A DNA stretch of 64,000 nucleotides, from the NCBI RefSeq assembly GCF_023151555.2, contig NZ_CP100425.1:1736001-1800000 (forward strand). The letters are read 5' to 3'. Source of the DNA: Photobacterium sp. CCB-ST2H9. Lineage in GTDB: Bacteria; Pseudomonadota; Gammaproteobacteria; Enterobacterales; Vibrionaceae. The position numbers were made by a program, and so were the translations under genes. The notes under the pieces were generated by a model that was not told the origin of the DNA, did no database searches, and was given only the letters and a program-made list of their open reading frames with translations. Shown here piece after piece: positions 18,328-45,763 of the stretch. The stretch's first letter is position 1; every line of letters begins with the position of its first letter.

Positions 18328-18340
18328 GTGACACTGTCAC
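18328..18340. other. matS site 1 (MatP-binding)
   Basis: GTGACACTGTCAC matches the consensus GTGACRNYGTCAC exactly. It is the only perfect copy here outside a coding region, between the pyrD stop and its terminator. Confidence 0.85.
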
Positions 18341-18365
18341 TTATCAGTAAACGGCTTCCAATCTG

Positions 18366-18394
18366 AACGCTCACATTTTATGTGAGCGTTTTTT
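18366..18394 (+). terminator. Terminator after pyrD
   Basis: A 10-bp perfect stem (AACGCTCACA with TGTGAGCGTT), a 5-nt loop and a T tract. Confidence 0.92.
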
Positions 18395-18416
18395 CATAGA
18401 TAAGCGTGATAAAAGC

Positions 18417-18442
18417 AGGAATGTTGTCAAAATTACATTCCT
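18417..18442. repeat. Inverted repeat upstream of zapC
   Basis: AGGAATGT and ACATTCCT are a perfect 8-bp inverted repeat with a 10-bp spacer, 120 bp before the zapC start. The geometry suits a dimeric regulator, but no protein is known to me for this sequence. Confidence 0.4.
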
Positions 18443-18562
18443 TAAGCGCATGATCTTCTGAGTCTTTTCCCCTTTTAATTTATCACTTGATTAGTACAAT
18501 TCATTGTGCGTACTCAATTTCTTGCTTTGATGACTGTCCATAGAAGGACATTGGAGCTTATC

Positions 18563-19102
18563 GTGTTAAAACCAAATAATTCATGGACGTGGTATTACGA
18601 CCAGAAGAATGACTCTTTGATGCTCGATTTGGGCGAAGAGATGGTTTTCCGCGTTTCCATTCCATGTAAACACCTCATCACCTGTGCGTTCAACCGCAGT
18701 GAATTCACTGTGGATGATGCAAGTACCTATCAAACATTCCTGGAAAACATCGCGACGCTGGAGCTGTCAGCCCCACGCAAAGTCGAGTTGGCACTGAATG
18801 CGGTCGCTGCAAGCCGGTTTCATAAGCCAATGATGCCGAAAAGTTGGTTCTTCACTCAACAAGATGGGGGATATGAGCCACGAAACGGTGAAATTATTGC
18901 TCTGGACACTGAACTGGCCACTGGGAAATACCTGGTGATTGAAAATAGCGGCTGCGCAAGTCTGTGTATGCTGGCCGATGTTGAGCCACACCAGCTGGCA
19001 ATCGGTAAGGATATCGACTTTTGTGGTGTTATTAAGGTCATGAATGACAGAATGCAGTCTGTCCATATTGATGATGAATTAGGCTTTGCCCTGGTCGGTT
19101 AA
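18563..19102 (+). CDS. zapC: Cell division protein ZapC
   Basis: The 179-residue product is like E. coli ZapC, which binds and bundles FtsZ at midcell. Shared features are the start LKPNNSWTWYYD, the MPKSW motif near residue 92 and the IKVMNDR motif near the C-terminus. I chose the GTG at 18563 because GGAG lies 6 bp before it and the length then equals the family norm (180). An in-frame GTG 57 bp upstream would add 19 unmatched residues. The gene stands alone within the terminus region. Confidence 0.9.
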   Translation: MLKPNNSWTWYYDQKNDSLMLDLGEEMVFRVSIPCKHLITCAFNRSEFTVDDASTYQTFLENIATLELSAPRKVELALNAVAASRFHKPMMPKSWFFTQQDGGYEPRNGEIIALDTELATGKYLVIENSGCASLCMLADVEPHQLAIGKDIDFCGVIKVMNDRMQSVHIDDELGFALVG

Positions 19103-20098
19103 ACCGGGGTTGAACCTTCCTTTACTTCCTTCGTAATCCTCGCTCCAGATTCTCTATTTTTCGAAGCTATCACTGCTCGCGTTTTCGACTGAACAGCAGC
19201 AGTTTGATGTCTGTTTCTGATTCACACTGACGCATAGGATTGTGAAAGCAATTCGTGTTATCAGGCCTGAACAATCGTTGAGCAGGGGTAGTGTTCTGCT
19301 GCGCCCAACGGGACAGTTTACTTCCGCAAAATGTTAAAGATGCTGAACCTCGCCACTGCAATGACCGATTTTTCGACGTATGGCTCATTTTCAGGGCATA
19401 TCGGCGAATCTAAAAATCGGTACCAAGGTCAAAAGACCGTAAAAATTTGCATTTTTTCGTGCCTCTTTTTGTCTTTTTACAGCAAAAAAATACAAGCTTC
19501 ATCACAATAAATATCGTTCACTCTCATCAATATTTCCCCATTTTCCTCCATTATGAAAGTCCGTAACAGTGATGAAAATTACTCTGCGGCAAGTGTTTCC
19601 TGTTGGGAAATAATGATGGTTTCCTTTCCGGAAAGAATGAATCCTATGTTGAATGAGCCTTGCGGAGAGAGCGAGTATTCACCTGCAAATAATGACTAAG
19701 TTGTAGCAAAAGAGAGTGCCTGTAGTTGATTTAAATTAATTAAGCTTCTGATTTATTTGCATTTATTATGGTTGTTTCCATGGGGAAACAAGCGGTATGT
19801 GTGAATGTTAGCGCTTCAATACAGTCAAAATCCATCGAGGTTTCAGATGGATATGCATTTTTGTTTCCCCTGGGAAACGGTCTTTTGGTCTGAACATTAG
19901 AGGAGCATTGAATATGCAATGCGGTCAGCTCACTTTTGAGCTGGTGAATGAAGGCAACTGAGCAGCAACTGAACATGAACGATTGTGGTCGCCTGACAGG
20001 GAAAATGTGTAAAAAAAGGGCGTCTGATACCCGGGATACAGGTGTTTAGCGATGATTTCAGGTATAATCGCCCGCAACATTTGTATGAAAAGAACCTC
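19103..20098. other. About 1 kb non-coding region between zapC and rlmL
   Basis: No convincing gene is visible on either strand. Short open frames (for example minus 19170-19388 and 19740-19976) have no start signals and no recognisable product. The right half contains four TTTCC/GGAAA inverted repeats, described separately. The last 40 bp hold a TATAAT at 20063-20068, the likely rlmL -10, with a poor -35. Confidence 0.55.
19596..19878. repeat. Array of four TTTCC-N-GGAAA inverted repeats
   Basis: Four short dyads share one core: TTTCC/GGAAA at 19596-19610 (5-bp spacer), TTTCC/GGAAA at 19625-19634 (no spacer, preceded by an extra TTTCC), GTTTCC/GGAAAC at 19774-19789 (4-bp spacer) and GTTTCCC/GGGAAAC at 19863-19878 (2-bp spacer). 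They look like repeated operator sites or decayed copies of one element. Nothing similar stands out elsewhere in the window. Confidence 0.5.
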
Positions 20099-22243
20099 AT
20101 GAATCAATATCTCGCTATTACTTCCCGTGGCCTGGAAAATCTCCTAGCCGATGAACTGTCACAATTGGGTGCCTCACAAGTGAAAGTGGTGCATGCTGGC
20201 GTGCGTTTTTCAGCTGATCAGCACACTGCTTATCGTTGTTGCCTCTGGACTCGAGTAGCATCGCGCATCATTCAGATTCTGAGTGAATTCAACGTCAGAA
20301 ATGATTTGGATCTTTATCTGGGTGCAACGGCTATCAACTGGGACCAGTATTTCAGTTCCAGTACACGCATTGTTGTGGATTTCAACGGTACGAACCGAGA
20401 AATACGAAATAGCCAGTACGGTGCCATGAAGGTCAAAGACGCCATTGTTGATCGTTTCGTCAAAGGTAATCAGCCTCGTCCTACCATTGACCGTGAACGC
20501 CCTGATTTGCGTATTCATGTTCGTCTGTCCAATGACAGAGCCATTGTGGGTCTGGATATGGCGGGAAGCGGCCTGCATCAGCGTGGCTACCGGACTGAAG
20601 CCGGTCAAGCACCATTACGTGAAACACATGCTGCGGCTCTGGTGATGAAAAGTGGCTGGACGCCTGAACAACCATTGCTCGATCCCATGTGTGGTTCAGG
20701 TACGTTATTGATTGAAGCCGCCATGATTGCTGCGGAGATTGCTCCCGGCCTGAAGCGTAAGCACTGGGGCTTTGAAGCACTGAAAGATTTCGATGAGCCG
20801 GCCTGGCAGGAAATCCATGCTGAAGCATCCGTGAAGGCTCGTCGTGGCGTGAGTAAAGTTACGGCTAAGTTTTATGGCCGTGAAATGGACAGACGTGTCC
20901 TGAGTATTGCCAGAGATAATGCCGGCCGCGCAGGTGTAGTTGAGCTGATGGATTTTGAATACGGTGATGCAGCGCAACTGGTTCGCCCGAAAGATTTCGA
21001 AACCGGGGTGATTTTGTGTAATCCACCGTATGGTGAACGTCTGGGAACGACATCGGAGCTGATTGAACTTTATACCGAGCTGGGTAATCGCCTGAAATTA
21101 GCATTTGCCGGTTCCACTGCCTCGATTTATTCATCTTCAAACGAATTGTTAAGCTGTATGCGAATGCGCGCAGATAAACAGTTTAAACTGCGCAATGGTG
21201 CGCTGGACTGTGTCCTGAAGACCTACAAGATCACCGCTGGTGGTGTGAAGCAGGTGGAAGGTGCTCAGGAAGGTGAGTTGGTAGAGCAGCAGGTTGCCCC
21301 GGATTTTGCGAACCGTTTAAAGAAAAACCTCTCGAAGCTGGATAAATGGGCGAAGAAGGAAAAGCTGGATTGCTATCGCGTCTATGATGCTGATTTGCCG
21401 GAATACAACGCTGCGGTCGATAAATACAAAGACTATATCGTGATTCAGGAATATGCGGCGCCGAAATCCGTTCCTGAAGAAAAGGCCCGTCGCCGTCTAA
21501 TGGATATCATGCGTGCAACGATTCAGGTGACTGGTGTAGACAGCGATAAAGTCGTGCTGAAAGTACGTGAGCGTCAGAAAGGCAAAAGTCAGTACCAGAA
21601 GCTGTCCAGTGCTGCCCGTTACATGACCGTCGATGAATACGGTGTGAAACTTCAGATCAATCTTTTTGATTACCTTGATACCGGTCTGTTCCTGGATCAT
21701 AAAATCACCCGCCGCCGTTTAGGTCAGATGGCCAAGGGCAAAGATTTCCTTAATCTGTTTGCGTATACCGGTTCAGCGACCGTCCATGCGGCTTGTGGGG
21801 GGGCTAAATCGACCACGACAGTGGATATGTCGAATACCTATCTGCGCTGGGCTCAGGAAAACATGGCGCTGAACGGACAGGTGGGTCAGCAGCATGAGTA
21901 CATTCAGGCAGACTGCCTGCAGTGGCTGCAGGAAGTGGATGACACTTTTGATCTGATCTTCATTGATCCGCCTACGTTCTCTAACTCAAAGCGCATGAAG
22001 CAAAGTTTTGATGTTCAGCGTGATCACATCATGCTGATGGAGAACCTGAAGCGTATGTTGCGTCCGGGCGGCCAGATTGTTTTCTCCAACAACAAGCGCC
22101 ATTTCAAAATGGATGAAGCAGGGCTGCTGGCGTTAGGCCTGCAAGCGAAGAATATTTCGTCTGAGACATTACCTCAGGATTTTGCACGGAATAAACACAT
22201 TCATAACTGCTGGATTATCACGCATAAGGAAGGCGGCCTCTGA
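20099..22243 (+). CDS. rlmL: Bifunctional 23S rRNA methyltransferase RlmL/RlmK
   Basis: The 714-residue fused enzyme makes m2G2445 (RlmL half) and m7G2069 (RlmK half) in 23S rRNA. A THUMP RNA-binding domain covers about 45-155. The first methyltransferase holds DPMCGSGT near 198 and the NPPYGER catalytic motif near 310. The second holds [11 protein letters not shown] near 558 and DPPTFSNS near 624. The ATG at 20099 gives the conserved [13 protein letters not shown] start; earlier in-frame starts are not needed. It heads an operon with a glutaredoxin-like gene, uup and a DUF3466 gene. Confidence 0.95.
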
Positions 22244-22275
22244 GCCGCCCATAACATTGAACTAAGGATTGTTAC

Positions 22276-22524
22276 TTGCCTATCATCCTCTACAGTACGG
22301 AAGGGTGCCACCTCTGCGCACAGGCTTATGCGCTGCTTGCAGAGGCGGGTGTTGCCGGACAGGTTGACGTTGTTGATATTGCTTTTGATGACGGCCTGTT
22401 TTCTCGTTACGGTGTCACTATTCCTGTGGTGTCCATTGAAGCGAATGGATCTGTTTCTGAGCTTGGCTGGCCGTTCGATGCCAGCCAACTGACTAATTGG
22501 TTAAAGAGTCATGGCGTTAATTAA
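22276..22524 (+). CDS. Glutaredoxin-like protein (DUF836 type)
   Basis: The 82-residue thioredoxin-fold protein carries a CxxC site (Cys11-His-Leu-Cys14) and the cis-proline motif TIPVV near residue 48. It probably reduces or exchanges disulfides; the partner is unknown. The start is TTG, supported by AAGGA 7 bp upstream and by the position of the fold's first strand. It overlaps uup by 14 bp, showing translational coupling. Confidence 0.8.
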   Translation: MPIILYSTEGCHLCAQAYALLAEAGVAGQVDVVDIAFDDGLFSRYGVTIPVVSIEANGSVSELGWPFDASQLTNWLKSHGVN

Positions 22525-24439
22525 AATTAGTAATGCGCAGCTGGCCTATGGCGATCATCCTCTGCTGGATAACGCTGAGTTTTTGCTGCAACCGAATGAG
22601 CGGGTGTGTCTGGTTGGCCGGAACGGTGCCGGCAAATCTACTCTGATGAAAGTCATCGCCGGTGATGTGCTGCTGGATGACGGAAGCATTCAGCGGATGA
22701 GCGAGCTGAAAGTATCGCGTCTCGAACAGGATCCGCCACGCGATGCAGACGGCACTGTGTTTGATTATGTTGCGGAAGGGCTGTCGGATGTCGGTGGTCT
22801 GCTCCGTGAATATCATCATCTGCTGGACAGTATTACCACGGACCCAAGTGAGTCGAACTTCGCAAGACTGGCCAAGGTGCAGGAGAAGCTGGATCACGCA
22901 GATGCATGGCAGTTCGATAATAAGATCACGTCGGTGCTTGAACATCTGGAGCTGAAACCGGAAATTTTGCTGACCGATTTGTCGGGTGGTTGGCAACGGA
23001 AAGCAGCACTGGCGAGAGCTCTGGTGAGTGATCCTGATATCCTGCAGCTTGATGAGCCGACGAACCACCTGGACGTCTCCACGATTGAATGGCTGGAAGG
23101 GTTTCTGAAAGACTTCCGCGGTTCCATTATCTTTATTTCGCATGACCGTGCCTTTATCCGTTCCATGTCGACCCGGATTGTGGATTTGGATCGGGGGCAG
23201 CTGAATTCTTTCCCTGGGGATTACGATAAGTACTTGGACGCGAAAGAAGAACTGCTGCGTGTTGAGAGCGAACAAAATGCTGAGTTTGATAAAAAGCTGG
23301 CTCAGGAAGAAGCCTGGATACGTCAGGGGATTAAAGCCCGTCGTACCCGTAATGAGGGGCGTGTTCGCGCGCTGAAGCAGCTTCGTGTTGAGCGAAGCGA
23401 GCGTCGCGAAGTGACGGGTAAGGCTGATATGCAGCTCCAGGAAGCACGCCGTTCTGGAAAAGTGGTCTTCGAAGCTGAAAACATCAGTTATCGCTATGAT
23501 GAAAACCCAATTATCCAGGATTTCAGTTTCAATGTGATGCGTGGTGACAGAATTGCACTGATTGGTCCGAATGGTTGCGGTAAGAGTACATTACTCAAGT
23601 TATTGTTGGGTGAACTCCAGCCGACAGAGGGACATTTCCACTGCGGTACGAAACTCGAAGTTGCTTATTTTGATCAGTATCGTGAAATTCTGGATCCGGA
23701 AAAGACGGTTCTGGATAACCTGGCTGAGGGTAAGCAGGAAGTCGTGGTCAACGGTCGTAGCCGGCATGCGCTGGGCTATTTGCAGGATTTCCTGTTTCAT
23801 CCCAAGCGTGCCCGCACACCGGTGAAGGCACTTTCCGGAGGTGAGAAAAACAGGCTGCTGCTGGCTAAATTGTTCCTCAAACCAAATAATTTGCTGGTGC
23901 TTGATGAACCAACAAACGATTTGGACATCGAAACTCTGGAACTTTTAGAAGATATTCTTGCCAATTATCAGGGCACTTTGCTCTTAGTCAGCCACGATCG
24001 ACAGTTTGTTGATAATACTGTGACCACAAGCTGGATTTTTGAAGGTCAGGGTGTCATTAATGAGTACGTTGGTGGTTACCATGATGCTCAGGCCCAGAGA
24101 GAAAATTCTGCATCTCAAAGAGCAAAAGCGCAGGCTGAAGCCATTGAGGCAGAAAAGAAAAAAGCTGAAAACAAACAGCGGCAGCAGGCAAACCGTGAGA
24201 AACCGGGTAAAAAACTGTCTTATAAGCTCCAGAAGGAACTTGAAGAGCTGCCTGCTCGTTTAGAAAATTTGGAAAATGAGATTGCCGGTCTGCAGGAGAA
24301 AATTAATGATCCTGCCTTCTTCCAGAGTGCACCCGATGATACTCAAGTGACGCTGTCACGCCTTGCTGAGGCTGAACAGGCACTTGAAGAAGCATTTGAG
24401 CGCTGGGAAGAGCTAGAAGCAATGCAAAAGGAATCCTAA
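22511..24439 (+). CDS. uup: ABC-F ATPase Uup
   Basis: The 642-residue protein has two ATPase domains in tandem and no membrane segments, the ABC-F plan. Walker A motifs are GRNGAGKST (36-44) and GPNGCGKST (352-360). Both LSGG signatures and both LDEPTN(H/D)LD motifs are present. The C-terminal ~90 residues form a charged coiled coil that binds DNA or ribosome in Uup. E. coli Uup limits transposon excision and replication-fork defects and acts on ribosomes. The stop shares a base with the next ATG. Confidence 0.94.
   Translation: MALIKISNAQLAYGDHPLLDNAEFLLQPNERVCLVGRNGAGKSTLMKVIAGDVLLDDGSIQRMSELKVSRLEQDPPRDADGTVFDYVAEGLSDVGGLLREYHHLLDSITTDPSESNFARLAKVQEKLDHADAWQFDNKITSVLEHLELKPEILLTDLSGGWQRKAALARALVSDPDILQLDEPTNHLDVSTIEWLEGFLKDFRGSIIFISHDRAFIRSMSTRIVDLDRGQLNSFPGDYDKYLDAKEELLRVESEQNAEFDKKLAQEEAWIRQGIKARRTRNEGRVRALKQLRVERSERREVTGKADMQLQEARRSGKVVFEAENISYRYDENPIIQDFSFNVMRGDRIALIGPNGCGKSTLLKLLLGELQPTEGHFHCGTKLEVAYFDQYREILDPEKTVLDNLAEGKQEVVVNGRSRHALGYLQDFLFHPKRARTPVKALSGGEKNRLLLAKLFLKPNNLLVLDEPTNDLDIETLELLEDILANYQGTLLLVSHDRQFVDNTVTTSWIFEGQGVINEYVGGYHDAQAQRENSASQRAKAQAEAIEAEKKKAENKQRQQANREKPGKKLSYKLQKELEELPARLENLENEIAGLQEKINDPAFFQSAPDDTQVTLSRLAEAEQALEEAFERWEELEAMQKES
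24347..24359. other. matS site 2 (in uup)
   Basis: GTGACGCTGTCAC is a perfect consensus match near the 3' end of uup. Confidence 0.83.
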
Positions 24440-26463
24440 TGCGACATAAGACGTTCACGTTTTCTGCACTGGCGGTGTTCATCGCCAGTGCTACACAGGC
24501 TCAAGCGGCGGTTTATGATGTCATCGAAATTACGGGTGACGCGAGCGGTGTAGAGACACTGCAGTACTATGATAAAAACACGAGTACGCTGGCTGAGAAG
24601 GTACAGTTTTACGGTCAGGGGATTGAACCGTCGGCAAGCGGTGTGAACTGTTTTGAAACCAGTTGTGCTTCTACGGATCACAAACTCTACGGTGAAAGCC
24701 GTTTTGGCAGTGATGGTGTCGATATTCGTGATGAAGTCCCATTCCAGTTGGATAACTTTCAGCAGATTAACGATCAGTGGTCTCTGGAAAGGTATTGTAA
24801 TTCAGCATTAGGTTTCAACACATGTGATACCTGGGCGAAGATCCGTTACTTCGGCAAGGATTACAATTCAGATAATCCGGAAAACGGAGAAAGCTTTGGC
24901 GGTTTACGTCGTGAGCAGTTTGCATGGCAGAACAACTATTACGCGAATACCTTACCATTGCTTGATAATGGGTCAGATAACCTTGAACGGGTAACGACCT
25001 TTGCCAATACGGCTGCTGGATATGACTCTAGCGTGACACCGTCACTGGGTTCGCTGGTGGACAGCAGTGATCATGTCACGACGAACGCTGCCGTGAATGC
25101 GTTAGGAAGCTCGACACTGGGTGATTTTACCCTTGGTGTCACGAGCTCTGCCTATTTCGCCAACAATAATCACTACGCACGCCAGTTTAACAAGCGTGGC
25201 TTCGTGAATGTTAATGGCAATCAGGTGTCTTTGTTGCCTGTCACCGGAAACGATCTGGTGAAGAATATGGGCCAGACGTTAGCCTGGGATGCCGTGGAAT
25301 ATCCTGAAAACAGCGGTAATCTGCTGGTGGTTGGCAGCGCAGCATTTTCGCCTTCTGAACTGAATAACAACATGAAGGTGCCAGATGATGTGTCTGTGAG
25401 TCGAAGCGATCTGACGAATTGTAAAACGAATGGTGCCGACCCGAGTCAGATCTTCAACTCTTGGGCATGTCAGTTTGTTGTGTTTGCGAATGATGCCGTG
25501 TTCTGGAACGTTGACGGCAGCGCAACGAATCCAGAGGCACAGCTGTTGTCTGAAAGGGCTTCGAACCGTCCTGCACTTGATCCGGATGATAAGAACCGTT
25601 CTTTCCAGGCTTCAGCTCGGGCTGTTGCTTTAGTGAACCAAAAGCCTGTGATGGTGGGTTATACAACCGACTCTGTCGGCAATGACTATTATGCAATGCG
25701 CGCCGCTGTCTACAAGCTGAAAGACGGCGTCACAGGAACACCAACAGCTAAAGACTGGGCAGTATCCTATATCCCGAATCTGAATATTGAATCAGGGGAT
25801 GAGCGTGTCTATCGCTATACGCTCGCGACGGACATTAATGAAAACGGCAAGGTTATTGGTGTTGCGAAGTCAGCACGCTCAGAAGAGCGTTCATTTGCTG
25901 AAAAATTGTATGTATACGACGTCAACACACAAAAGTTCTCCTGGCTGGATTCTTCCGTAAGCAGCTTATTTTTTAAAGGTGCGAATGGTTTTGCCAGTGA
26001 GATTAATAACAATGACCAAATCGTTGGGTGGGTTGATACGGAAACCGTGAACCAGGTGAATGGTCGTCAACGTCGTCAACGCGCATTCACTTATCTGGCT
26101 GGTAATGACATTGTCACTGATGCATTGCCAGCGAAGTCCGCATGGTTGCTTGATGATCTGACGAACGATGATGTCCTTAGCGGTAATGCCAATAAATTCC
26201 GTATTGCGCAGGCGACTGGGATCAATGATGCCGGAGTGATTTCTGCAACGGCACTTAAATGCGAGAACGGTTTTCAAAGCCTCAGCAAAGATGCCAAGTG
26301 TGAAGGCGAAGAGCGTTTGGTCGCGGTACAGCTTGTTCCAAAAACGGATGCAAAAGTACAAGCACGTTTGGATGAAAAAGAGAAGGTCACCCGGAAAGGT
26401 GGATCTCTTGGCCTGGTGACGTTGTCACTTCTGGCTTTTTTTGGGTTACGCCGGAAACAGTAA
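24439..26463 (+). CDS. DUF3466 exported protein with GlyGly-CTERM tail
   Basis: The 674-residue protein has a signal peptide (about 1-23, ending AQA). It matches the DUF3466 family seen after uup in Vibrio. At the C-terminus a GGS motif is followed by about 14 hydrophobic residues and RRK. This is the GlyGly-CTERM pattern cut by rhombosortase in type II-secreting bacteria, so the mature protein is probably released at the cell surface (inference). Several cysteines suggest disulfides. The ATG overlaps the uup stop (TAATG). It contains two matS sites. The function is unknown. Confidence 0.85.
   Translation: MRHKTFTFSALAVFIASATQAQAAVYDVIEITGDASGVETLQYYDKNTSTLAEKVQFYGQGIEPSASGVNCFETSCASTDHKLYGESRFGSDGVDIRDEVPFQLDNFQQINDQWSLERYCNSALGFNTCDTWAKIRYFGKDYNSDNPENGESFGGLRREQFAWQNNYYANTLPLLDNGSDNLERVTTFANTAAGYDSSVTPSLGSLVDSSDHVTTNAAVNALGSSTLGDFTLGVTSSAYFANNNHYARQFNKRGFVNVNGNQVSLLPVTGNDLVKNMGQTLAWDAVEYPENSGNLLVVGSAAFSPSELNNNMKVPDDVSVSRSDLTNCKTNGADPSQIFNSWACQFVVFANDAVFWNVDGSATNPEAQLLSERASNRPALDPDDKNRSFQASARAVALVNQKPVMVGYTTDSVGNDYYAMRAAVYKLKDGVTGTPTAKDWAVSYIPNLNIESGDERVYRYTLATDINENGKVIGVAKSARSEERSFAEKLYVYDVNTQKFSWLDSSVSSLFFKGANGFASEINNNDQIVGWVDTETVNQVNGRQRRQRAFTYLAGNDIVTDALPAKSAWLLDDLTNDDVLSGNANKFRIAQATGINDAGVISATALKCENGFQSLSKDAKCEGEERLVAVQLVPKTDAKVQARLDEKEKVTRKGGSLGLVTLSLLAFFGLRRKQ
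25033..25045. other. matS site 3 (in DUF3466 gene)
   Basis: GTGACACCGTCAC, a perfect match. Confidence 0.83.
26416..26428. other. matS site 4 (in DUF3466 gene)
   Basis: GTGACGTTGTCAC, a perfect match. It overlaps the codons of the GlyGly-CTERM hydrophobic helix. Confidence 0.83.
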
Positions 26464-26488
26464 TCTTGCAAACTTTGTTTAAATTTTA

Positions 26489-27522: not shown

Positions 27523-29232
27523 TCAGTGGTGGCCCAACCAGTTCCTGAAAAATGGCAGCCAGCCGCGGTCATCACTGTGTCCGCTATGTACATGCTCAAT
27601 ACGATCTGCAATGACGTCCAGCAACGTGTCTTCCTGACCGTCTTCTTTGCTTGCATCACGACTGAAAGCTTTACCCGTCAGCAGAGGCAGGGCGTCGTTC
27701 ACGCTCTCTACAGCCCAGATATGGAAACGACCTTGCTGAATCGATTCCAGTACCTCATCGGAAAGACACAGATTACTGAGGTTTGTTTTCGGTAATATGA
27801 CACCTTGCTGACCAGTTAACCCGCGGTACGCACAAACCTTGTAAAAACCTTCGATTTTTTCATTAATGCCACCCACGGCCTGGACACGTCCGAACTGATC
27901 GACGGCGCCGGTAACTGCAATTTGCTGATTGATCGGTTGCTGAGACAGTGCTGAAACCAATGCGCAAAGCTCCGCCAGAGAAGCGCTGTCACCATCTACT
28001 TCACTATAGGATTGTTCAAAAACAATCGAGGCAGCATAAGGCAGCGGTTGGTCCAAATTCAAAGCAGCACTTAAAAATGCCTGCATGATCATCATCCCTT
28101 TGGCATGGATATTACCGGCGAGCTCTGCTTTACGTTCGACATCGGAAATATCGCCGTCACCGAAATGCACGACACAAGAGATACGGGCGGGTTCACCGTA
28201 GGCTGTTGGATGGCCTGGCATCTCAACGACGGTTAAACCGTTCACCTGGCCGACTTCCTGGCCCTGGCAGTCAATGATCACCTGGCCATGATGAATATCT
28301 TCAATAGCCCGTTCAGGCAAATAAGCGCTGCGATATTCTTTGGCTTTGAGCGAACGTTGAATGTGCTCAGCATGAATTGACTGGCCTTCGGACTCGATGG
28401 CTGCTTCGCAAAGCAAACTTAAATACCAGATTGGGCAAAGGGGCAGGCGATTCTGATCTTCTTCATGGCGAGCACCTGTTCTCATCAGCAGTTTCAGTGC
28501 TTCGGTGTCTGCAATATCGGGAAGCTTTGCTTTTTGAATCATCGATTTCAGATAACCCAGATAATCCGGCAGGTTATCCTGCGCCAGGCGCATATCCTGT
28601 TCGAATTCCCCGTACATACTGAATCCGGAAGCAATATCAGGCTCAGCATTTTCAAGCTCAGCCATCAGGTATCTGTCACCAATCAATACGAGTTTTACAT
28701 TCAGCGATTCTGGCGCAGGAAGTGGGTATAATTTCTTCTGAGTTACTGGTTGCCACTCAAGCTGACCATTCATCAATACGGCTTTTAATCTTGGCCACAG
28801 GCTTGGATTCGCCAGGATACTCGCCACAGAGAGGACCAGATAACCGTTGTTGGCTTGATGAAGTAACCCGTGTTTGACCTGAGGTTTGGTCAGTTTTCCG
28901 TCTTCAAGCGGCGGGTAAACTGCACCAAATAAGTTGATTTCAGTGACGTTGTCACCTGCAATGATGACGGAGGATTCTTCAGCTGACGTTTGAGGTGCGC
29001 TGTGGAAGTGATGAATTAAATCAATCACATAATCACGGTAAATTTTGTTGTCCGGAGCTGTAACCCGAAGAACTCTGGGTTGAATAGTAACTGCTGTGAA
29101 TCGGCGTACAGCATCGCACAGGCGATCTTGTAAAATGCCTGTCGGTGCAGGGGGGAGTTGTGCATATTGCGCCAGAACTGATTCATACTGCGAATAGTCT
29201 GGAAGCATGGTACGCCAGGATTCTTCTTGCAT
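27523..29232 (-). CDS. lonH: LonH/YcbZ-type Lon protease-like protein (S16)
   Basis: The 569-residue protein resembles E. coli YcbZ (586). The C-terminal S16 protease domain holds the Lon Ser-Lys dyad: Ser416 in EVDGDSAS and Lys459 in GGINEKIEG. Their 43-residue spacing is that of Lon. The N-terminal half corresponds to an AAA-like domain but I see no intact Walker A, so it may not hydrolyse ATP. Substrates are unknown. The start MQEESWRTMLPD lines up with the YcbZ N-terminus. It is divergent from matP and contains a matS site. Confidence 0.9.
   Translation of the reverse strand: MQEESWRTMLPDYSQYESVLAQYAQLPPAPTGILQDRLCDAVRRFTAVTIQPRVLRVTAPDNKIYRDYVIDLIHHFHSAPQTSAEESSVIIAGDNVTEINLFGAVYPPLEDGKLTKPQVKHGLLHQANNGYLVLSVASILANPSLWPRLKAVLMNGQLEWQPVTQKKLYPLPAPESLNVKLVLIGDRYLMAELENAEPDIASGFSMYGEFEQDMRLAQDNLPDYLGYLKSMIQKAKLPDIADTEALKLLMRTGARHEEDQNRLPLCPIWYLSLLCEAAIESEGQSIHAEHIQRSLKAKEYRSAYLPERAIEDIHHGQVIIDCQGQEVGQVNGLTVVEMPGHPTAYGEPARISCVVHFGDGDISDVERKAELAGNIHAKGMMIMQAFLSAALNLDQPLPYAASIVFEQSYSEVDGDSASLAELCALVSALSQQPINQQIAVTGAVDQFGRVQAVGGINEKIEGFYKVCAYRGLTGQQGVILPKTNLSNLCLSDEVLESIQQGRFHIWAVESVNDALPLLTGKAFSRDASKEDGQEDTLLDVIADRIEHVHSGHSDDRGWLPFFRNWLGHH
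28943..28955. other. matS site 5 (in lonH)
   Basis: GTGACGTTGTCAC, a perfect match, 516 bp left of matP. Confidence 0.83.
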
Positions 29233-29411: not shown

Positions 29412-29424
29412 GTTACACTGTCAC
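29412..29424. promoter_or_regulatory. Degenerate matS in the matP promoter region
   Basis: GTTACACTGTCAC differs from the matS consensus at one base. It lies 47 bp upstream of the matP ATG in the lonH-matP divergent gap, where bound MatP could affect its own transcription. Function is inferred. Confidence 0.4.
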
Positions 29425-29470: not shown

Positions 29471-29923
29471 ATGAAATATCAGCAATTGGAAAACCTGGAA
29501 GCTGGCTGGAAGTGGGGTTATCTCGCAAAGAAATATAAGGAAGGAGAAGCTATCACTCGATACATTGACACGAGTGAAGCAGAAGCGGCTGTGCAGTCTT
29601 TCCTTGCGCTGGAACACGAGCCAACAAAAGTGCTGGAATGGATTCAAAACCATATGTCTCCGGCATTGGATAACAAAATTAAGCAGGCGATTCGTGCAAA
29701 ACGAAAACGTCACTTCAATGCTGAACAGGTCCACACCCGGAAGAAATCGATTGATCTGGATTATCGGGTTTGGGAAAAGCTGTCTGATAAATCCAGAGAG
29801 CTAGACTGTACGCTATCCGATACGATTGAGTATCTGCTGAGTGAGAGTAGTAAGTCGCTGGAAGCCAATAAAAAAGTTCAGGACATCAAACAAGACTTAA
29901 GTAAATTGCTTCAGCTTGATTGA
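29471..29923 (+). CDS. matP: Macrodomain Ter protein MatP
   Basis: The 150-residue DNA-binding protein organises the terminus macrodomain by binding matS and links it to the divisome through ZapB. It shows the family layout: an N-terminal helical domain with LEAGWKWGYL, a ribbon-helix-helix core near 90-125 (RKKSIDLDYRVWEKLSD) and a C-terminal coiled coil. At least eight perfect matS sites lie within 15 kb. The stop is 46 bp from the next gene, a possible operon partner. Confidence 0.96.
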   Translation: MKYQQLENLEAGWKWGYLAKKYKEGEAITRYIDTSEAEAAVQSFLALEHEPTKVLEWIQNHMSPALDNKIKQAIRAKRKRHFNAEQVHTRKKSIDLDYRVWEKLSDKSRELDCTLSDTIEYLLSESSKSLEANKKVQDIKQDLSKLLQLD

Positions 29924-31142: not shown

Positions 31143-33860
31143 ATGCAGGCTTCTCCACTCGCTTATTTGAAATATTATCGGCGCTGTTATCGTGAAGACA
31201 GTCATGATCTCTCTTTGTCGAATGTCTTAAAAATTCGGCAGGATCGAAGGCTATGGATTCGAGAAGAAGAAAACCTGCTCAGCGGTAAATTACCCAGGCA
31301 ACCTGTCGTCGATAAAGTTGCGGAAGAGATGGCGAAGCAGGTCGATTTGTATCGAAGAGAAAAGCGTTTGATCTACGGTAGTCTGATGATCAAAGGGCAG
31401 ATAAATATTACGAATGGTATTGCTGCACAACGACAGCTGTTTTCGCCATTACTTTATTTGCCGGCTGAACTGGTTCTTGATGATGCCGAACACAGATGTG
31501 TTCAGGTTGATGTGACTGACATTCGATTAAACAACGCGCTCCTGAGGCAAATACTTAACCCTGAGATTGATCCGCAGGTGATTGATACATTTCCAGAACC
31601 AGTGTTTCCGCTGACCGACATTTATATTGCCCAAGTCGGACACTGGTTGGGGACACATTGTCAGGTACAACGCCTTGAAAGTTTAGCCAGATGGCCGGTT
31701 TTAGAATGCGCATCAGAGACAATGAAAATTTCCGGCACGGATAACATTGAGCTGGTGTGTGCCAGCGGACTCTTTCTTGCAGACAGAAGCCGAGGGAGTC
31801 GGGGCGTTTTACATGAATTGAATCTGATGCAACAACGGCAATCGCTTTCTCAGCCATTAATGCAATTGTTTCATTTAGAAAGCCATCGTGAGAAGCAACA
31901 AAGAAAAACAACATCTCACGCATGCCATTTACCATATCAGTTGAGTTTGCCTCAGCAACAGGCCTTGAAAAATGCTGCGCACCAACCTTTAAGCATCCTG
32001 GCCGGACCTCCAGGCACTGGGAAAAGTTTTACCATTGCTGCGATGGCTATCGACCGTATGATGCATGGTGAATCTGTTTTAATCGTAGCTAAAACAGATC
32101 AGGCCATTGATGTGATTGCGGAAAAACTCCGGGATGGTTTTGGTCTTGAAGGTGGCTTTGTTCATGCTAACAGCACATCCTTTAATAAAACGATGCGCCA
32201 GTATCTGGAGAGTATTCTGCTGTCCGGTCTAAGAGTGACGGTGTCACATGATGATAACTCTGCACAGCAGCTGAAACAGACAGGTGCTGAACTCGCAAAG
32301 GCTGAAAAAGAGTTTTCACGAGCTTTATGGATTGCTCGTTACGCAAGCGGACATAACTCCGGAACCTGGTTACAAAAACTCAAAGCAAATTTTCTGAGTC
32401 GTTTTATTAGAGAAAGTGCGTTATGGGAAACACAAGAGACACTGCAACGTGCCACACAAGTTTACAACAGCCTGACGATGTCAGAAATTAACCGGATCAG
32501 GAATGAACAACTGGCTGATGTGCTTCAGACACAGCGCAGGACAATGCATCAGTTCTGGGATGCATTGAAAGCAAGGAACTCGAAGACTCAGGAAGAACGT
32601 TTCAGGGATACCGATTTTACAACGATAACGACAGCATTACCGATTTGGCTGGTTACAGTAGATGAATTGAGCCAGTCTTTACCGTTGCACGAATCCTTAT
32701 TTGATGTGGTCATTTTTGACGAAGCGACCCAATGCGATATCGCAAGCGCGCTGCCGGCACTTTATCGTGCCAAGCGGGCGGTTGTTGCAGGTGATGTGAA
32801 GCAACTCCGTCATGTTTCTTTTCTTTCTCGCGGCCAACAGAACAAATTCTGGCATGAAGAAGGCTTACCAGAACATTTGTTAGAGAACTTCGCTTATCGT
32901 GATAAGTCACTGCTGGATTGTGTGTCTGCCAGTTTATCCAATCAAAGTGCTGTGACGTTTCTGGATGAGCACTACCGGAGCCAAGCCGATCTGATCAGAT
33001 TCAGCAATCAATACTTCTATGGTAATCGTCTGAAAATCATGCAGGCACGCCCGGGGGGCTCACAGCAACCTGCATTAGAATTTATTTATTTGCCAGAAGG
33101 CCAACGTACTAAAACAGGGCGTAACTCAGCAGAAAAAGAAGCTGTGATTACTTTAATTCAATCTTATCTTGATGCTTTTCGTAACGCGGCGTACCCACCA
33201 AAAATCGGAGTCATCTCTCCGTTCAGAGAACAGGCTGCTTTTATTGAGAAAGCGGTAGAGAAAGAGTTTTCGTATGAAGTAATACAACGGTATGCGCTGC
33301 GGGTCTCAACGCCTTATGGATTTCAAGGTGAAGAGCGTGACATCATGATTCTGTCGATGGCTGTAGATGAAAACAGTGCTCGGGCTGCAGCATACTTAAA
33401 TCGGGAGGATATGTTTAATGTCATGGTGACTCGCGCAAGGAAGTCACAGGTTATCTTTCATTCGTTCATTCCCGAAGTGTTGAGTCATCAGAATTTGCTC
33501 CGCCAGTATCTTGGCTTTTCTCATAACGATAAAGCTACGACGACGCAGCAAAACGCGGAATCATTTATTTGTGATTTCACTGACCAGATCAAACAAGCGC
33601 TGGAACGGGCAGGGGTTCAGTATTGGGTCGGCGCTTTTGTTGCAGGAGAAAATATTGACGTGATTTGTCAGCATGGAGAAAGCACGCTAGGCCTCGATTT
33701 AATCGGTTACAGTGGCGATTTTGAAGGATACTTTGACCTCAATACTCACAGAACCTTCCAGCGCGCCGGACTGCAAGTACTCCCGGTACCATTCCAGCTA
33801 TGGCAATCTGACCCTGAACGTGTCCTTCGTGAAATTAAAAATCGCTTAAGTATAAGCTAG
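31143..33860 (+). CDS. SF1 (UPF1-like) helicase with C-terminal nuclease-like domain
   Basis: The ~905-residue protein carries all SF1B motifs: Walker A GPPGTGKS at 288-295, motif II DEATQ, motif III GDVKQL, a SPFREQ motif, TPYGFQGEERD (V) and NVMVTRARK (VI). A helical insertion lies between motifs Ia and II. The last ~100 residues resemble the Vsr/MTES_1575 nuclease fold often fused to such helicases, with IDVIC, LGLDLIGY and a QLWQSDPERVL tail. It may process DNA or RNA. I start at the ATG at 31143; a GTG 12 bp earlier is possible and neither has a good ribosome site. The gene ends 550 bp from dif. Confidence 0.82.
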   Translation: MQASPLAYLKYYRRCYREDSHDLSLSNVLKIRQDRRLWIREEENLLSGKLPRQPVVDKVAEEMAKQVDLYRREKRLIYGSLMIKGQINITNGIAAQRQLFSPLLYLPAELVLDDAEHRCVQVDVTDIRLNNALLRQILNPEIDPQVIDTFPEPVFPLTDIYIAQVGHWLGTHCQVQRLESLARWPVLECASETMKISGTDNIELVCASGLFLADRSRGSRGVLHELNLMQQRQSLSQPLMQLFHLESHREKQQRKTTSHACHLPYQLSLPQQQALKNAAHQPLSILAGPPGTGKSFTIAAMAIDRMMHGESVLIVAKTDQAIDVIAEKLRDGFGLEGGFVHANSTSFNKTMRQYLESILLSGLRVTVSHDDNSAQQLKQTGAELAKAEKEFSRALWIARYASGHNSGTWLQKLKANFLSRFIRESALWETQETLQRATQVYNSLTMSEINRIRNEQLADVLQTQRRTMHQFWDALKARNSKTQEERFRDTDFTTITTALPIWLVTVDELSQSLPLHESLFDVVIFDEATQCDIASALPALYRAKRAVVAGDVKQLRHVSFLSRGQQNKFWHEEGLPEHLLENFAYRDKSLLDCVSASLSNQSAVTFLDEHYRSQADLIRFSNQYFYGNRLKIMQARPGGSQQPALEFIYLPEGQRTKTGRNSAEKEAVITLIQSYLDAFRNAAYPPKIGVISPFREQAAFIEKAVEKEFSYEVIQRYALRVSTPYGFQGEERDIMILSMAVDENSARAAAYLNREDMFNVMVTRARKSQVIFHSFIPEVLSHQNLLRQYLGFSHNDKATTTQQNAESFICDFTDQIKQALERAGVQYWVGAFVAGENIDVICQHGESTLGLDLIGYSGDFEGYFDLNTHRTFQRAGLQVLPVPFQLWQSDPERVLREIKNRLSIS
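32235..32247. other. matS site 6 (in helicase gene)
   Basis: GTGACGGTGTCAC, a perfect match, the nearest matS to dif (about 2.2 kb). Confidence 0.83.
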
Positions 33861-34129
33861 CTAGGTTACCGCGTAACTTTTTGTGTAAGGTTCCGTCCAG
33901 TATTGGCTGATGCTGATAATATTGGAAATGATCGCGTTATTTCCTGAGAAATCATTTATCAATGAGTTTGATTCTTTGCTTGGACAGACATCAGATTATT
34001 GCCTCTGGTCAGAAATAATGGTCATCATCTAAGTGAGCCAACCCGATAAATCCATGAAGCTCTGAAACTGTCAGTCATTCGTATCTAACACATTTACCTG
34101 GTCATACATTTGGATTCCTTGGAGCATAA

Positions 34130-34411: not shown

Positions 34412-34439
34412 AGTGCGCATAACATAGATTATGTTAAAT
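34412..34439 (+). other. dif: dif, XerC/XerD chromosome dimer resolution site
   Basis: The 28 bp fit the dif plan. The left arm is AGTGCGCATAA (XerC side), the centre CATAGA, and the right arm TTATGTTAAAT (XerD side). The right arm equals the E. coli arm exactly. The left arm differs from E. coli only in its first base, where A is also found in V. cholerae dif1 (from memory). matS sites on both sides and nearby matP support the call. FtsK activates XerCD here to resolve dimers before division. Confidence 0.93.
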
Positions 34440-39477: not shown

Positions 39478-39560
39478 TAAGCTTTGGGTGGCATTGCGAA
39501 ATGAAGTTGTTCGCAAAGAAACAAGAGTGTAGTTGAAAATTTTTAGTGGAAGCATGCAAC

Positions 39561-40988: not shown

Positions 40989-41000
40989 GGAGTACAACAG

Positions 41001-41609
41001 ATGAGCTTTCGTCACGAACTTGTAGAAAAAAATGCTGGTTTGCTGGCCATTCTGATTGTCATTGCAATCAGCTTTGGTGCCCTGGTTGAAATCACACCGC
41101 TGATTTATCAGGAGCAAACCACTGAGCCTGTTGAAAACCTGCGCCCATATACCGCCCTGGAAATGGAAGGCCGTGATATTTACATCCGTGAAGGTTGTAC
41201 CGTATGTCACAGCCAGATGGTTCGTCCGTTCCGTTCAGAAACAGAACGTTACGGCCATTATTCCGTTGCCGGTGAAAGTGTTTGGGAACACCCATTCCTG
41301 TGGGGTTCAAAACGTACAGGTCCTGACCTGGCGCGTGTTGGTGGTCGTTATTCAGATGAATGGCATCGAGTCCACCTTCGTAACCCACGCGATGTCGTTC
41401 CTGAATCTAACATGCCTGGTTTCCCTTGGCTGGAAACGAACACGTTAGATGGAAAAATCACCTCTAAAAAGCTGGCATTATTCCGTGATAAGTTCGGTGT
41501 TCCCTACACTGATGAGCAAATCGCAAAAGCTGGTGATGATGTGAAAGGCAAGACTGAAATGGACGCACTTATTGCTTACCTTCAGTCGTTAGGTCACGCG
41601 ATGAAATAA
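41001..41609 (+). CDS. ccoO: cbb3 oxidase monoheme cytochrome c subunit (CcoO)
   Basis: The 202-residue protein has one N-terminal membrane anchor (about 15-38) and a periplasmic cytochrome c domain with heme motif CTVCH (Cys66, Cys69, His70). A later Met in [10 protein letters not shown] is the likely sixth ligand. It passes electrons from CcoP to CcoN. It starts 12 bp after ccoN with AAGGAG upstream. Confidence 0.96.
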
Positions 41610-41618
41610 GGAGGCACC

Positions 41619-41795
41619 ATGGATATTGGAACCATTCATAGCATTTGGACAGTCATCCTGTTCGCTAGCTTTATTGGTATTGTCCTTTGGGCCTACAGTA
41701 AACGCCGTAAATCTCAATTCGACGAAGCTGCAAACCTTGTGTTTGCCGACGAAGAACTGGATATGGCCACGCGTGAAAAAGACAGGAGCAAATAA
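41619..41795 (+). CDS. ccoQ: cbb3 oxidase small subunit CcoQ
   Basis: This 58-residue frame has one membrane helix (about 9-26), then a basic turn (YSKRRK) and an acidic tail, typical of CcoQ/FixQ, which stabilises the CcoP-complex interaction. AAGGAGG precedes the ATG. It lies 9 bp after ccoO and ends 2 bp before ccoP. Confidence 0.92.
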   Translation: MDIGTIHSIWTVILFASFIGIVLWAYSKRRKSQFDEAANLVFADEELDMATREKDRSK

Positions 41796-41797
41796 GA

Positions 41798-42775
41798 ATG
41801 TCTACGTTTTGGAGTATATGGGTCTCAGTCATCACGCTTGGCACCTTAGCCGCGATGGCAGGTCTTCTGATCTGGTGTAGCCGCGACAAAATGGGTGTAG
41901 AAGAAGGTGAAGACATGGGACACGAATACGATGGTATTCGTGAAATTAACAACCCACTGCCTAAGTGGTGGTCTTACATGTTTTGGGGGACCATCATTTT
42001 CTCACTGGTTTATCTGGCGCTTTATCCGGGCTTAGGTAATTTCAAAGGTTTGTTTGGTTGGCAGAGTTCAGATCAAACAGTTCGTACTGTCGCTGAGTCA
42101 AAAGCTTCTATTGCAAACGCCCAGCAACAACAAGAACTGAACCAGTATGCCAAAGAGCTGGGTGATGCTGAGCAATCCTACGGTGAGCTGTTTAAGACAC
42201 TGGCTTATGATGAGTCTGGTAATCATCTTCGTCCAATCGAAGCGATTGCAGCAGATTCAGAAGCCCGTCGTGTTGGCCAGCGTCTGTTCCTGCAGAACTG
42301 TGCTCAGTGCCATGGCTCTGATGCTCGTGGTCAGCAAGGATTCCCGAATCTGACAGACAACGACTGGCTGTACGGTGGTGAACCTGAGACGATCAAGACA
42401 ACCATCATGCATGGCCGTCAAGGTGCAATGCCTGCGTGGATTGACACTTTAGGTGAAGACGGTGTACAAGAAGTAGCCAGCTATGTTCTGAGCCTGTCTG
42501 GACGTAAAGTAAATGCCAAAGAAGCTGCTGCAGGTAAACAACGCTTTGTTGTCTGTGCTGCCTGCCATGGTACTGACGGTAAAGGTAACCCGGCTTTCGG
42601 TGCACCTGACCTGACAGATAACACCTGGCTGTTTGGCGGTTCACGTCGTGCGGTTGTTGAGACGATCACTCACGGTCGTCAAGGTGTTATGCCAGCATGG
42701 GAGCATATTCTGGGTGAAGAAAAAATCCAGCTTATCTCTGCATATGTCTGGGGTCTGAGCAACAGCGAACAGTAA
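41798..42775 (+). CDS. ccoP: cbb3 oxidase diheme cytochrome c subunit (CcoP)
   Basis: The 325-residue protein has two membrane helices (about 5-27 and 55-77) and two cytochrome c domains with heme motifs CAQCH (168-172) and CAACH (253-257). Each domain ends in a W-L-(Y/F)-GG loop and an MPAW motif supplying the axial Met. It takes electrons from soluble cytochromes. A strong terminator separates it from fixH. Confidence 0.96.
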   Translation: MSTFWSIWVSVITLGTLAAMAGLLIWCSRDKMGVEEGEDMGHEYDGIREINNPLPKWWSYMFWGTIIFSLVYLALYPGLGNFKGLFGWQSSDQTVRTVAESKASIANAQQQQELNQYAKELGDAEQSYGELFKTLAYDESGNHLRPIEAIAADSEARRVGQRLFLQNCAQCHGSDARGQQGFPNLTDNDWLYGGEPETIKTTIMHGRQGAMPAWIDTLGEDGVQEVASYVLSLSGRKVNAKEAAAGKQRFVVCAACHGTDGKGNPAFGAPDLTDNTWLFGGSRRAVVETITHGRQGVMPAWEHILGEEKIQLISAYVWGLSNSEQ

Positions 42776-42843
42776 TTCATATTTCTGTTACGAATCAGTT
42801 GATTGTTGACGTTTGCTGACAATTTCACTGAAGATATGCCACT

Positions 42844-42874
42844 GAGCCCCTGCTAAAATCAGGGGCTCTTTTTA
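42844..42874 (+). terminator. Terminator after ccoNOQP
   Basis: A 9-bp perfect stem (GAGCCCCTG with CAGGGGCTC), a 7-nt loop and five Ts. Confidence 0.92.
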
Positions 42875-42896
42875 TAGATTCGATAAAGGATTCACA

Positions 42897-43388
42897 ATGC
42901 AAAAACCATGGTATAAGCAGTTTTGGCCTTGGTTCATAATTGCGATCCCAACCATCTCTGTCGTCTACAGTATGACGGCACTGTATGTCTTCTCGCAGAA
43001 CAAGGTCGATTTAGTTGCTGAGGATTATTACAAGAAAGGAAAAGGAATCAATCAGGACTTTTCCCGACTTCGTGTTTCTGACGCTCTGAAAATCCAGGCG
43101 AATATCAGCGTGAGCGACACCGATATCGTTCTCCGTCTGAACAAGGGTGAATTGAAGTCCTTCCCGACTTTACGTGTGATGTTTACGCACCGAACGCTGG
43201 CTGAAAAAGACTTCACTCAAATGATCAGCCCGGATATGCAAGGGAATTATCGTTTCTCCGCTCCGGAGTCAATTGACGGTCCCTGGTTTGTTGAAGTTGA
43301 GCCTTTCAAAGGCGACTGGATGCTGAATGGTCGTTTGAATCTCCCCTCATCTGACCCGATTCCACTTTATGGACAGAAGCAAAGATGA
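42897..43388 (+). CDS. fixH: FixH/CcoH-family oxidase assembly protein
   Basis: The 163-residue protein has one N-terminal membrane helix (about 10-33) and a periplasmic domain, like FixH. It starts with the W-x-x-FWPWF pattern and has EDYYKKGK after the helix, both family traits. It helps mature the cbb3 complex. The stop overlaps the ccoI start by 4 bp. No ccoG gene is present between ccoP and fixH, unlike the rhizobial fixGHIS order. Confidence 0.85.
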   Translation: MQKPWYKQFWPWFIIAIPTISVVYSMTALYVFSQNKVDLVAEDYYKKGKGINQDFSRLRVSDALKIQANISVSDTDIVLRLNKGELKSFPTLRVMFTHRTLAEKDFTQMISPDMQGNYRFSAPESIDGPWFVEVEPFKGDWMLNGRLNLPSSDPIPLYGQKQR

Positions 43389-45763
43389 GTGAATCTTGCT
43401 ACCACTGTGGTGATCCGGTTCCACAAGATACTCATTTGAATGTCGAGATCCTGGGAGAGGCACGAAGTATGTGCTGCCCGGGATGCGAAGCTGTTGCACA
43501 GACTATCGTCGATAGTGGTTTAACATCTTATTACGAGTATCGTACAGTCACAGCAGATAAAGCCGATTTGGTGCCTCAACAACTACAATCTTTGTCTCTC
43601 TACGATAACGAAGATATTCAGCAGGATTTTGTCCGATCCAGTGAGAATGCAAACGAAGTGACATTGTCACTCGAAGGTGTCTCTTGCGCGGCCTGTGCAT
43701 GGTTGATTGAAAAGCAGCTCAAACGTGAACATGGGGTGCTCAATATTCGGGTAAACACAACGACGCATCGTGCCTTGCTCAGTTGGGATCCTGCTCAAGC
43801 AAAACTCAGCCAACTCTTATCTGCGATACATCGTCTCGGGTACAAAGCGGCTCCTTTTGAAGCTGATAATCAGGAACAGCATTACCATCAGACAATGAAG
43901 AACTACCTGTACCGGCTGGGCATTGCTGGTCTGGCAACGATGCAAGTCATGATGCTGGCGGTAGCGCTGTACTTTGAAGTTTTCGGTGATCTTGATGAAA
44001 GCTTCAGAAATTATTTCCGCTGGGTAAGCCTTTTATTTGCAACCCCTGTCCTGCTCTATTCCGCATTACCCTTTTATCTCAATGCCTGGCGGAATCTGAG
44101 AGCCAGAGCACTGGGTATGGACGTTCCCGTCTCTATCGCTCTGATTTTTGCTTACGTAGCCAGTTTTTATGCAACAGTCACAGAGAAAGGTGAAGTCTTC
44201 TTTGAATCTATTTCGATGTTCACTTTCTTCTTATTGATTGGGCGTTACCTGGAAATGCGAGCAAGGCGTAAAGCTGCTGCTGCCAGTGCGAATCTGCTCA
44301 AACTTATCCCGGCCATGGCCAATCTCGCCGATGGCAGTCAGATTGCAGCAAAAAGTCTGAAAGTAGGTGACGTTGTCACCATTCTGCCCGGAGAGAGCCT
44401 ACCTGCAGACGGCGTGATTGTTTCAGGAAGCAGCGTGATTGATGAATCCATGCTGACAGGCGAGCCATTACCTGTTCGCAGAATCAGTGGTGAAGATGTC
44501 TACGCAGGTACGATAAATGGTGATGGCAACCTGAATATTCAAGTGACCCAGGATCGCCAGCATTCTCTGATCTCGTATATCATTCGCCTCCAGGACGAAG
44601 CTCAGGCATCAAAACCCAAGATTGCTGAATTAGCCGATGTTGTCGCGCGATATTTTGTCGCCACAATTCTGATGATTGCAGCCGGCACCTGGCTATACTG
44701 GCATCAGACCAGGCCCGACGATGCCCTTTGGATTACACTGGCTGTTTTGGTCGCCACCTGCCCTTGTGCCTTATCGCTGGCAACACCGACAGCGCTGACG
44801 TGTGCAACGTCCCGTATTGGACGTCTCGGTATTTTGTTAAGACGCGGCCATGTTCTGGAAACCTTATGTAATATCAATCAGCTTGTGATTGATAAAACCG
44901 GGACCCTCACAGAAGGCAATGTCCGAATTGTAACAACGGCGTGTTTCTCTCACCAGAGTGAAGCTGAAGTTCTTTCAATCTCAGCCGAACTTGAACGCTT
45001 TGCGAATCACCCGATTGCCAGAGCATTTTCATCTCACCGAAACTCCGATTTTTCGTTTGATGAGGTGATCAATGAAGTCGGTTTTGGGCTGAAAGGATAT
45101 CGCAATGGCCAGGAGTGGCGAATTGGTAAAGCATCATTTGCGCTTTTTAATCAAGCCCAGATGCCAAACGAAGAGGATTTTCAGGTCTGGCTGACTTGTG
45201 ATGGACAGGCAATCGCCGCTTTCAAACTGGATGATCCGATTCGCCCTGACAGTAAAGCATTAATCAGTGCCTTTCAGTCGGAAGGAATTCAGGTCACCAT
45301 GCTGACAGGTGATCATTCAGACAACGCTACACGCGTCGCTGAACAACTCGCTGTCGATAAGCTGGTAAGCGGGGCGACACCACAAGGCAAACTGAATTAT
45401 CTGCAGGAACTGGATAAGCATCAGATTACTCTGATGATTGGTGATGGTGTCAATGATGCGCCTGTGTTGGCTGGAGCGCATTTGTCACTGGCGATGGGCA
45501 GCGGTACTGACATTGCAAAATCGTCTGCAGACATGGTGCTCTTAGGAGACCACCTCAGCCGGATACTGGAAGCACGCAAACTTGCGATGAAAACACGCAA
45601 GATCATACGCGAGAATCTGTCATGGGCGTTAGGCTATAACCTTGTTATTCTACCCCTGGCGGTTGCAGGTCTGGTTGCCCCTTACATTGCGGTTTTGGGC
45701 ATGTCGGCCAGTTCCATCATTGTTGTGTCCAATTCACTGAGGTTATTAAAAGAAGATGGCTAG
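43385..45763 (+). CDS. ccoI: Copper-transporting P1B ATPase for cbb3 assembly (CcoI/FixI)
   Basis: The 792-residue pump exports Cu for cbb3 oxidase assembly. An N-terminal cysteine-rich part (CYHCGD, CCPGC) precedes a heavy-metal domain with CAAC near 100-103. Eight membrane helices follow, the sixth holding the metal motif CPC (Cys459, Cys461). The phosphorylated Asp503 lies in DKTGT, and TGEP and GDGVNDAP motifs are intact. It contains two matS sites and overlaps ccoS. Confidence 0.93.
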   Translation: MSESCYHCGDPVPQDTHLNVEILGEARSMCCPGCEAVAQTIVDSGLTSYYEYRTVTADKADLVPQQLQSLSLYDNEDIQQDFVRSSENANEVTLSLEGVSCAACAWLIEKQLKREHGVLNIRVNTTTHRALLSWDPAQAKLSQLLSAIHRLGYKAAPFEADNQEQHYHQTMKNYLYRLGIAGLATMQVMMLAVALYFEVFGDLDESFRNYFRWVSLLFATPVLLYSALPFYLNAWRNLRARALGMDVPVSIALIFAYVASFYATVTEKGEVFFESISMFTFFLLIGRYLEMRARRKAAAASANLLKLIPAMANLADGSQIAAKSLKVGDVVTILPGESLPADGVIVSGSSVIDESMLTGEPLPVRRISGEDVYAGTINGDGNLNIQVTQDRQHSLISYIIRLQDEAQASKPKIAELADVVARYFVATILMIAAGTWLYWHQTRPDDALWITLAVLVATCPCALSLATPTALTCATSRIGRLGILLRRGHVLETLCNINQLVIDKTGTLTEGNVRIVTTACFSHQSEAEVLSISAELERFANHPIARAFSSHRNSDFSFDEVINEVGFGLKGYRNGQEWRIGKASFALFNQAQMPNEEDFQVWLTCDGQAIAAFKLDDPIRPDSKALISAFQSEGIQVTMLTGDHSDNATRVAEQLAVDKLVSGATPQGKLNYLQELDKHQITLMIGDGVNDAPVLAGAHLSLAMGSGTDIAKSSADMVLLGDHLSRILEARKLAMKTRKIIRENLSWALGYNLVILPLAVAGLVAPYIAVLGMSASSIIVVSNSLRLLKEDG
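43658..43670. other. matS site 7 (in ccoI)
   Basis: GTGACATTGTCAC, a perfect match, right of dif. Confidence 0.83.
44367..44379. other. matS site 8 (in ccoI)
   Basis: GTGACGTTGTCAC, a perfect match, 709 bp from site 7. No further perfect site was seen to the right end. Confidence 0.83.

Follow-up and report, generated by a model that had tools for sequence, protein, structure and literature searches.

A dense cluster of matS sites beside dif on chromosome 1 of a Photobacterium genome encloses matP and a candidate MatP operator

The DNA analysed here (the window, a 64-kb stretch corresponding to C1:1736001-1800000) comes from a two-chromosome Photobacterium relative whose genome is assembled in contigs C1 (3583075 bp), C2 (1505213 bp) and C3 (79850 bp). 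Eight perfect copies of the matS sequence GTGACRNYGTCAC, all on the forward strand, lie within 26 kb of it; we recovered exactly the starts listed in a preliminary description of this DNA, and no other perfect copy occurs in the 64-kb window. The leftmost (18328-18340) is intergenic: it starts 4 bases past the final base of a dihydroorotate dehydrogenase ORF (17305-18324) and is followed by a zapC-like ORF, and P. halotolerans and P. salinisoli have a perfect counterpart at a similar location. The other seven fall within long ORFs, as had been described, namely a uup-like ORF (24347-24359), a DUF3466 ORF (25033-25045 and 26416-26428), a lonH-like ORF (28943-28955), an AAA_11/AAA_12 helicase ORF (32235-32247) and a ccoI-like P-type ATPase ORF (43658-43670 and 44367-44379, with a 709-bp spacing that is identical in both relatives compared). 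Pfam matches (ABC-F with C-terminal domain, DUF3466, LonB-like protease, AAA_11/AAA_12 helicase, P-type ATPase) fit the gene names given earlier; uup, lonH and ccoI are putative names resting on this fit. The zapC-like cell-division gene that adjoins the intergenic site occupies 18506-19102 (PF21083, PF07126).

A dif-like 28-mer at 34412-34439 (forward strand) is presumably dif1, the chromosome dimer resolution site, and all four KOPS-like octamers in the window are oriented toward it. At 33865-33877 on the same strand, 547 bp to its left, lies a broad-motif site (GTTACCGCGTAAC), a candidate MatP site whose binding is uncertain. The matP gene (29471-29923, forward strand), overlooked in the preliminary description, is located within the cluster, at 4.5 kb from dif. 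It encodes 150 amino acids with N-terminal and ribbon-helix-helix domains (PF06303, E 4.1e-43; PF17414, E 9.6e-26), and Photobacterium galatheae has the closest named MatP found (95% identity, in a search that may omit records very near the window's own). The 13-mer GTTACACTGTCAC (29412-29424, forward strand), one base off the matS consensus, begins 59 bp ahead of the start codon of matP.

In dinucleotide shuffles of the window, perfect copies of GTGACRNYGTCAC numbered 0.02 on average and one at most, versus the eight in the real sequence, and 15 matches with up to one mismatch were present where 0.44 were expected. Genome-wide we counted 42 perfect sites, 19 on C1, 22 on C2 and one on C3. All 19 of those on C1 fall between 1391989 and 2090232 of 3583075, or -378/+320 kb of dif1, at a mean spacing of 38.8 kb that is close to E. 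coli's. They are densest near dif: seven of the 19 lie within 10.5 kb of dif1 (all seven within 10.1 kb) and eight within 25 kb, and if the sites were uniform over their span, eight of 19 within 26 kb would have a probability of 3e-5. For dif2 (C2:512457), the corresponding numbers are three and seven of 22. An equal density of the motif chromosome-wide, the outcome that the preliminary description had set against its own reading, was not what we found: the 400 kb around dif1 contain 16 perfect and 14 one-mismatch sites, compared with no perfect and one one-mismatch site in a control stretch (C1:400001-800000). The reversed pattern gave six one-mismatch matches around dif1 and one in the control over the same 400-kb stretches, so that part of the one-mismatch excess may reflect composition. 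The sites were also said to bracket dif unevenly, six left and two right; the count stands, but an asymmetry does not, the left/right ratio being 13:6 on C1 (two-sided binomial P 0.17, not significant) and 11:11 on C2. The consensus sequence, the confinement to the terminus and the presence of a MatP gene in the genome together support the identification of the cluster sites as matS.

In E. coli, 23 matS sites over 800 kb (PMC3330122) or 28 by ChIP-seq (PMC10945525) are reported. The Photobacterium sites resemble the E. coli Ter macrodomain in the 13-bp site, the protein family, the confinement to the terminus around dif and the similar mean spacing (PMC3330122, PMC10945525), but they are far more concentrated at dif and occupy two replicons, and the distance from matP to dif is 4.5 kb as opposed to about 572 kb in K-12. 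The earlier statement that the sites are far denser than in E. coli is thus correct near dif (seven within 10.5 kb compared to one in K-12, where the 100 kb around dif contain four perfect sites, and to none even within 25 kb in two closed, presumably enteric genomes from family f19) and not for the domain average; a closed Vibrio-like genome (G206) has three within 25 kb. A density culminating at dif has been described for 16 gamma-proteobacteria in a 2024 eLife paper (PMC10945525), and C1 conforms to that description. Akin to the matS domains of Vibrionales, with their density peak at dif and sites on both chromosomes (PMC10945525, PMC4177673), including TerI and TerII of V. cholerae (PMC4177673), the present cluster is a well-supported further instance of known matS domains, whose concentration at dif is already published. 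The accessible text of PMC10945525 and PMC4177673 on Vibrionales domains mentions neither codon-level conservation nor a site at the matP promoter.

For Photobacterium angustum, 77 matS in 409 kb (18.8 per 100 kb) are given (PMC10945525), a count that is not directly comparable with ours because it used a ChIP-derived consensus and we used a strict pattern. By the strict pattern, 40 genomes of the genus (the window's own included) contain 12 to 42 sites, the window's genome having the most, a ranking that leans on the pattern since the P. angustum group uses mostly GTTAC/GTAAC arms; we therefore rejected the strict pattern as a misleading cross-species measure. Four P. angustum-like loci (L036, L042, L044, L049) are nearly devoid of perfect matS around matP and have several GTTAC/GTAAC-armed sites, showing that the consensus has drifted in this genus.

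MatP is known to bind matS, to limit MukBEF and to contact the division machinery (PMC4738335, PMC10945525), and densely placed matS have a larger effect on MukBEF, with stronger exclusion (PMC10945525). We consider the cluster to be the dif-proximal core of the MatP/matS terminus domain of chromosome 1, with a probability of about 0.85. Each site would then be a 13-bp landing place for MatP, the seven sites within about 10 kb of dif would keep the condensin MukBEF off, and their density would hold sister termini close to the septum, the place at which FtsK and XerCD work. These functions of MatP are published for other systems, and we infer that they operate in this Photobacterium cluster.

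The site upstream of matP is widely kept. GTTAC-N3-GT[C/A]AC was present within 100 bp upstream of matP at all 80 Vibrionaceae loci compared (the best 80 of 552 confirmed relatives), with GTCAC as right arm in 64 and GTAAC in 16. MatP occurs in 56 of 197 sampled genomes of the order, and leaving aside the window's own genome and two f20 genomes in which the start was not located, 45 of the remaining 53 orthologs are preceded by a site that fits GTKACNNNGTMAC with no more than one mismatch, for which the chance per 100 bp is 0.0068. By family, these are 13/13 in f1, 9/10 in f19, 12/12 in f27, 1/1 in f5, 10/14 in f9 and 0/1 in each of f11, f22 and f26; f1 overlaps with the 80 loci, some of its genomes being identical records, and the count without f1 is 32/40. 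Exact matches to GTKACNNNGTMAC make up 44 of the 45, the left arm being GTTAC in 42 and GTGAC in two. In K-12 the site (GTTACACGGTAAC) starts 25 bp before matP. Two orthologs carry a fully perfect matS at this place, as if the two site forms were interchangeable.

Since a near-copy of matS before matP is kept in so many relatives, MatP may control its own production. We give about even odds to 29412-29424 being an autoregulatory operator, a reading drawn from sequence conservation, in which MatP would bind the site more weakly than the consensus sites and repress matP. Were this weak operator filled only once the matS of both chromosomes are occupied, it would fill last and the amount of MatP would be matched to the number of sites; this titration detail, with the operator reading free MatP, is more doubtful than autoregulation as such. 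The chances seem similarly balanced for the broader proposal that matP controls itself through the conserved GTTAC-N3-GT[C/A]AC in Vibrionaceae and much of the order, at a level set by the matS total on all replicons. In Vibrionaceae such a sensor would be part of the matS core next to dif, where copy number is the last to double during a cell cycle. A true MatP operator would explain how MatP is matched to site numbers that range, by the strict pattern, from 12 to 42 among the 40 genomes of the genus.

Regulation of its own gene by a chromosome protein with sites elsewhere has parallels in DnaA, Tus and H-NS/StpA (PMC4585315, PMC8347550, PMC6936261, PMC5742627), and tus, like matP, is the gene of a terminus protein; the families and mechanisms differ, and for MatP the regulation is proposed from sequence conservation. 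Among the matches listed in our searches of the openly licensed literature, no paper deals with MatP self-regulation, which may have been mentioned elsewhere; autoregulation in the accessible parts of related openly licensed papers concerns StpA, Tus, DnaA, ParAB or H-NS, not MatP. A consensus promoter scan revealed no good sigma-70-like site overlapping the proposed operator; a TATACT 2 bp downstream of the operator was spotted by eye.

Alternatively, the site could be a further structural matS without any part in regulation, kept owing to the location of matP in the terminus. Wherever dif was found, in 36 of the 80 Vibrionaceae loci, it lies 0.86 to 10.4 kb right of matP (the other 44 have no dif match at two mismatches in the available stretch, and the right flank is incomplete in 19 of the 80), and sites of the broad motif GTKACNNNGTMAC are common around matP, where every one of eight Vibrionaceae groups has about 2 to 4 of them per 10 kb; both observations agree with a structural role. 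We nevertheless regard it as unlikely, because the position is tied to the start codon and the GTTAC left arm is found in 80/80 loci, whereas nearby perfect sites turn over, and because two closed genomes (G216 and G194) with matP about 0.66-0.71 Mb from dif have the site right at matP, with the nearest perfect matS 143 and 161 kb away.

The arms depart fixedly from the matS consensus (GTTAC in 80/80 loci and in 42 of the 44 exact matches across the order), as might be expected if the promoter site were bound by another regulator with a matS-like motif. We know of no such regulator and think this explanation improbable: the perfect matS at this place in two orthologs argues against it, as does the distribution of GTTACRNYGTCAC, whose five copies on C1 are all found less than 200 kb from dif1, where a MatP target would be expected. 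On C2, 3/5 copies are more than 300 kb from dif2; GTTACNNNGTMAC is found within 200 kb of dif1 in 10/13 cases on C1, and GTTAC-armed sites are, then, terminus-biased on C1 and less so on C2. Genome-wide, GTTAC-N3-GTMAC is not enriched, with 27 strand matches versus 32 for the reversed control.

The operator-like site is absent in 8/53 orthologs, and we found no clean rule of co-loss of operator and matS among the operator-less genomes: four of them, all in f9, have 0 to 3 matS-like sites, and the other four (G057, G049, G061 and G065) hold 24, 21, 13 and 10. Two f9 genomes that do have the operator, G179 and G224, contain one and no matS-like sites genome-wide. In six f9 orthologs (L186, L187, L189, L191, L210, L211) the site before matP is GTTACCACGTCAC, in which C replaces the usual purine. 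Given this type of site and the one and zero matS-like sites of G179 and G224, the specificity of MatP may have shifted in f9. As a second MatP operator we had considered GTTACGGTGTCAC (22406-22418, upstream of the uup-like ORF), a like site being present in 75 of the 76 loci examined (of 80). We set this candidate aside as doubtful: the site lies inside a short ORF with an apparently conserved RYGVT (judged by eye), so its conservation may be protein-driven.

The sites within genes bear traces of constraint at the codon level. When synonymous codons of 43 window ORFs (taken from a mechanical ORF list, not all of them verified genes) were shuffled 1000 times, the mean was 1.198 perfect sites and the maximum three, against the real eight, each count including the intergenic site, which was never shuffled. 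In codon alignments, the coding matS were kept in P. salinisoli at 6/6 comparable sites, in P. halotolerans at 5/6 and in P. arenosum at 3/4, while other 13-mers of the same genes with conserved amino acids were kept at 10-11%. The binomial values are 1.4e-6, 6e-5 and 0.0045, respectively, and are not independent because the relatives share history. Both DUF3466 sites were kept in the three relatives compared and both ccoI-like sites in the two compared; the uup-like site was kept in P. salinisoli, and P. halotolerans and P. arenosum each have it with a single mismatch. Judged one at a time, by how their same-codon rate compares with that of windows across their own gene, the sites do not stand out: the fractions are 0.03 to 0.14, and 0.68 at the helicase site. 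At this last site, P. galatheae, the sole ortholog compared, has a different peptide and one mismatch, and the proposal that codons have been kept compatible with MatP binding consequently has support at six of the seven coding sites and none at 32235. Among more distant Vibrionaceae, the lonH-like site is perfect at the homologous codons in only 8 of the 69 loci examined (of 80), indicating that sites turn over.

These data support the view that selection on synonymous codons maintains the matS that lie within genes, and the cluster offers codon-level evidence for selection keeping intragenic matS in a genome with strong matS concentration at dif. The like peptides encoded at several sites (VTLS, GDxVT) might suggest that codon usage or peptide composition produced the cluster as a side effect; this is already contradicted by the protein-preserving codon shuffles, by the 400-kb control without a perfect site and by the codons kept in relatives. 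The one perfect matS on the 80-kb third contig (L209 726-738) lies outside the listed ORFs of at least 150 amino acids.
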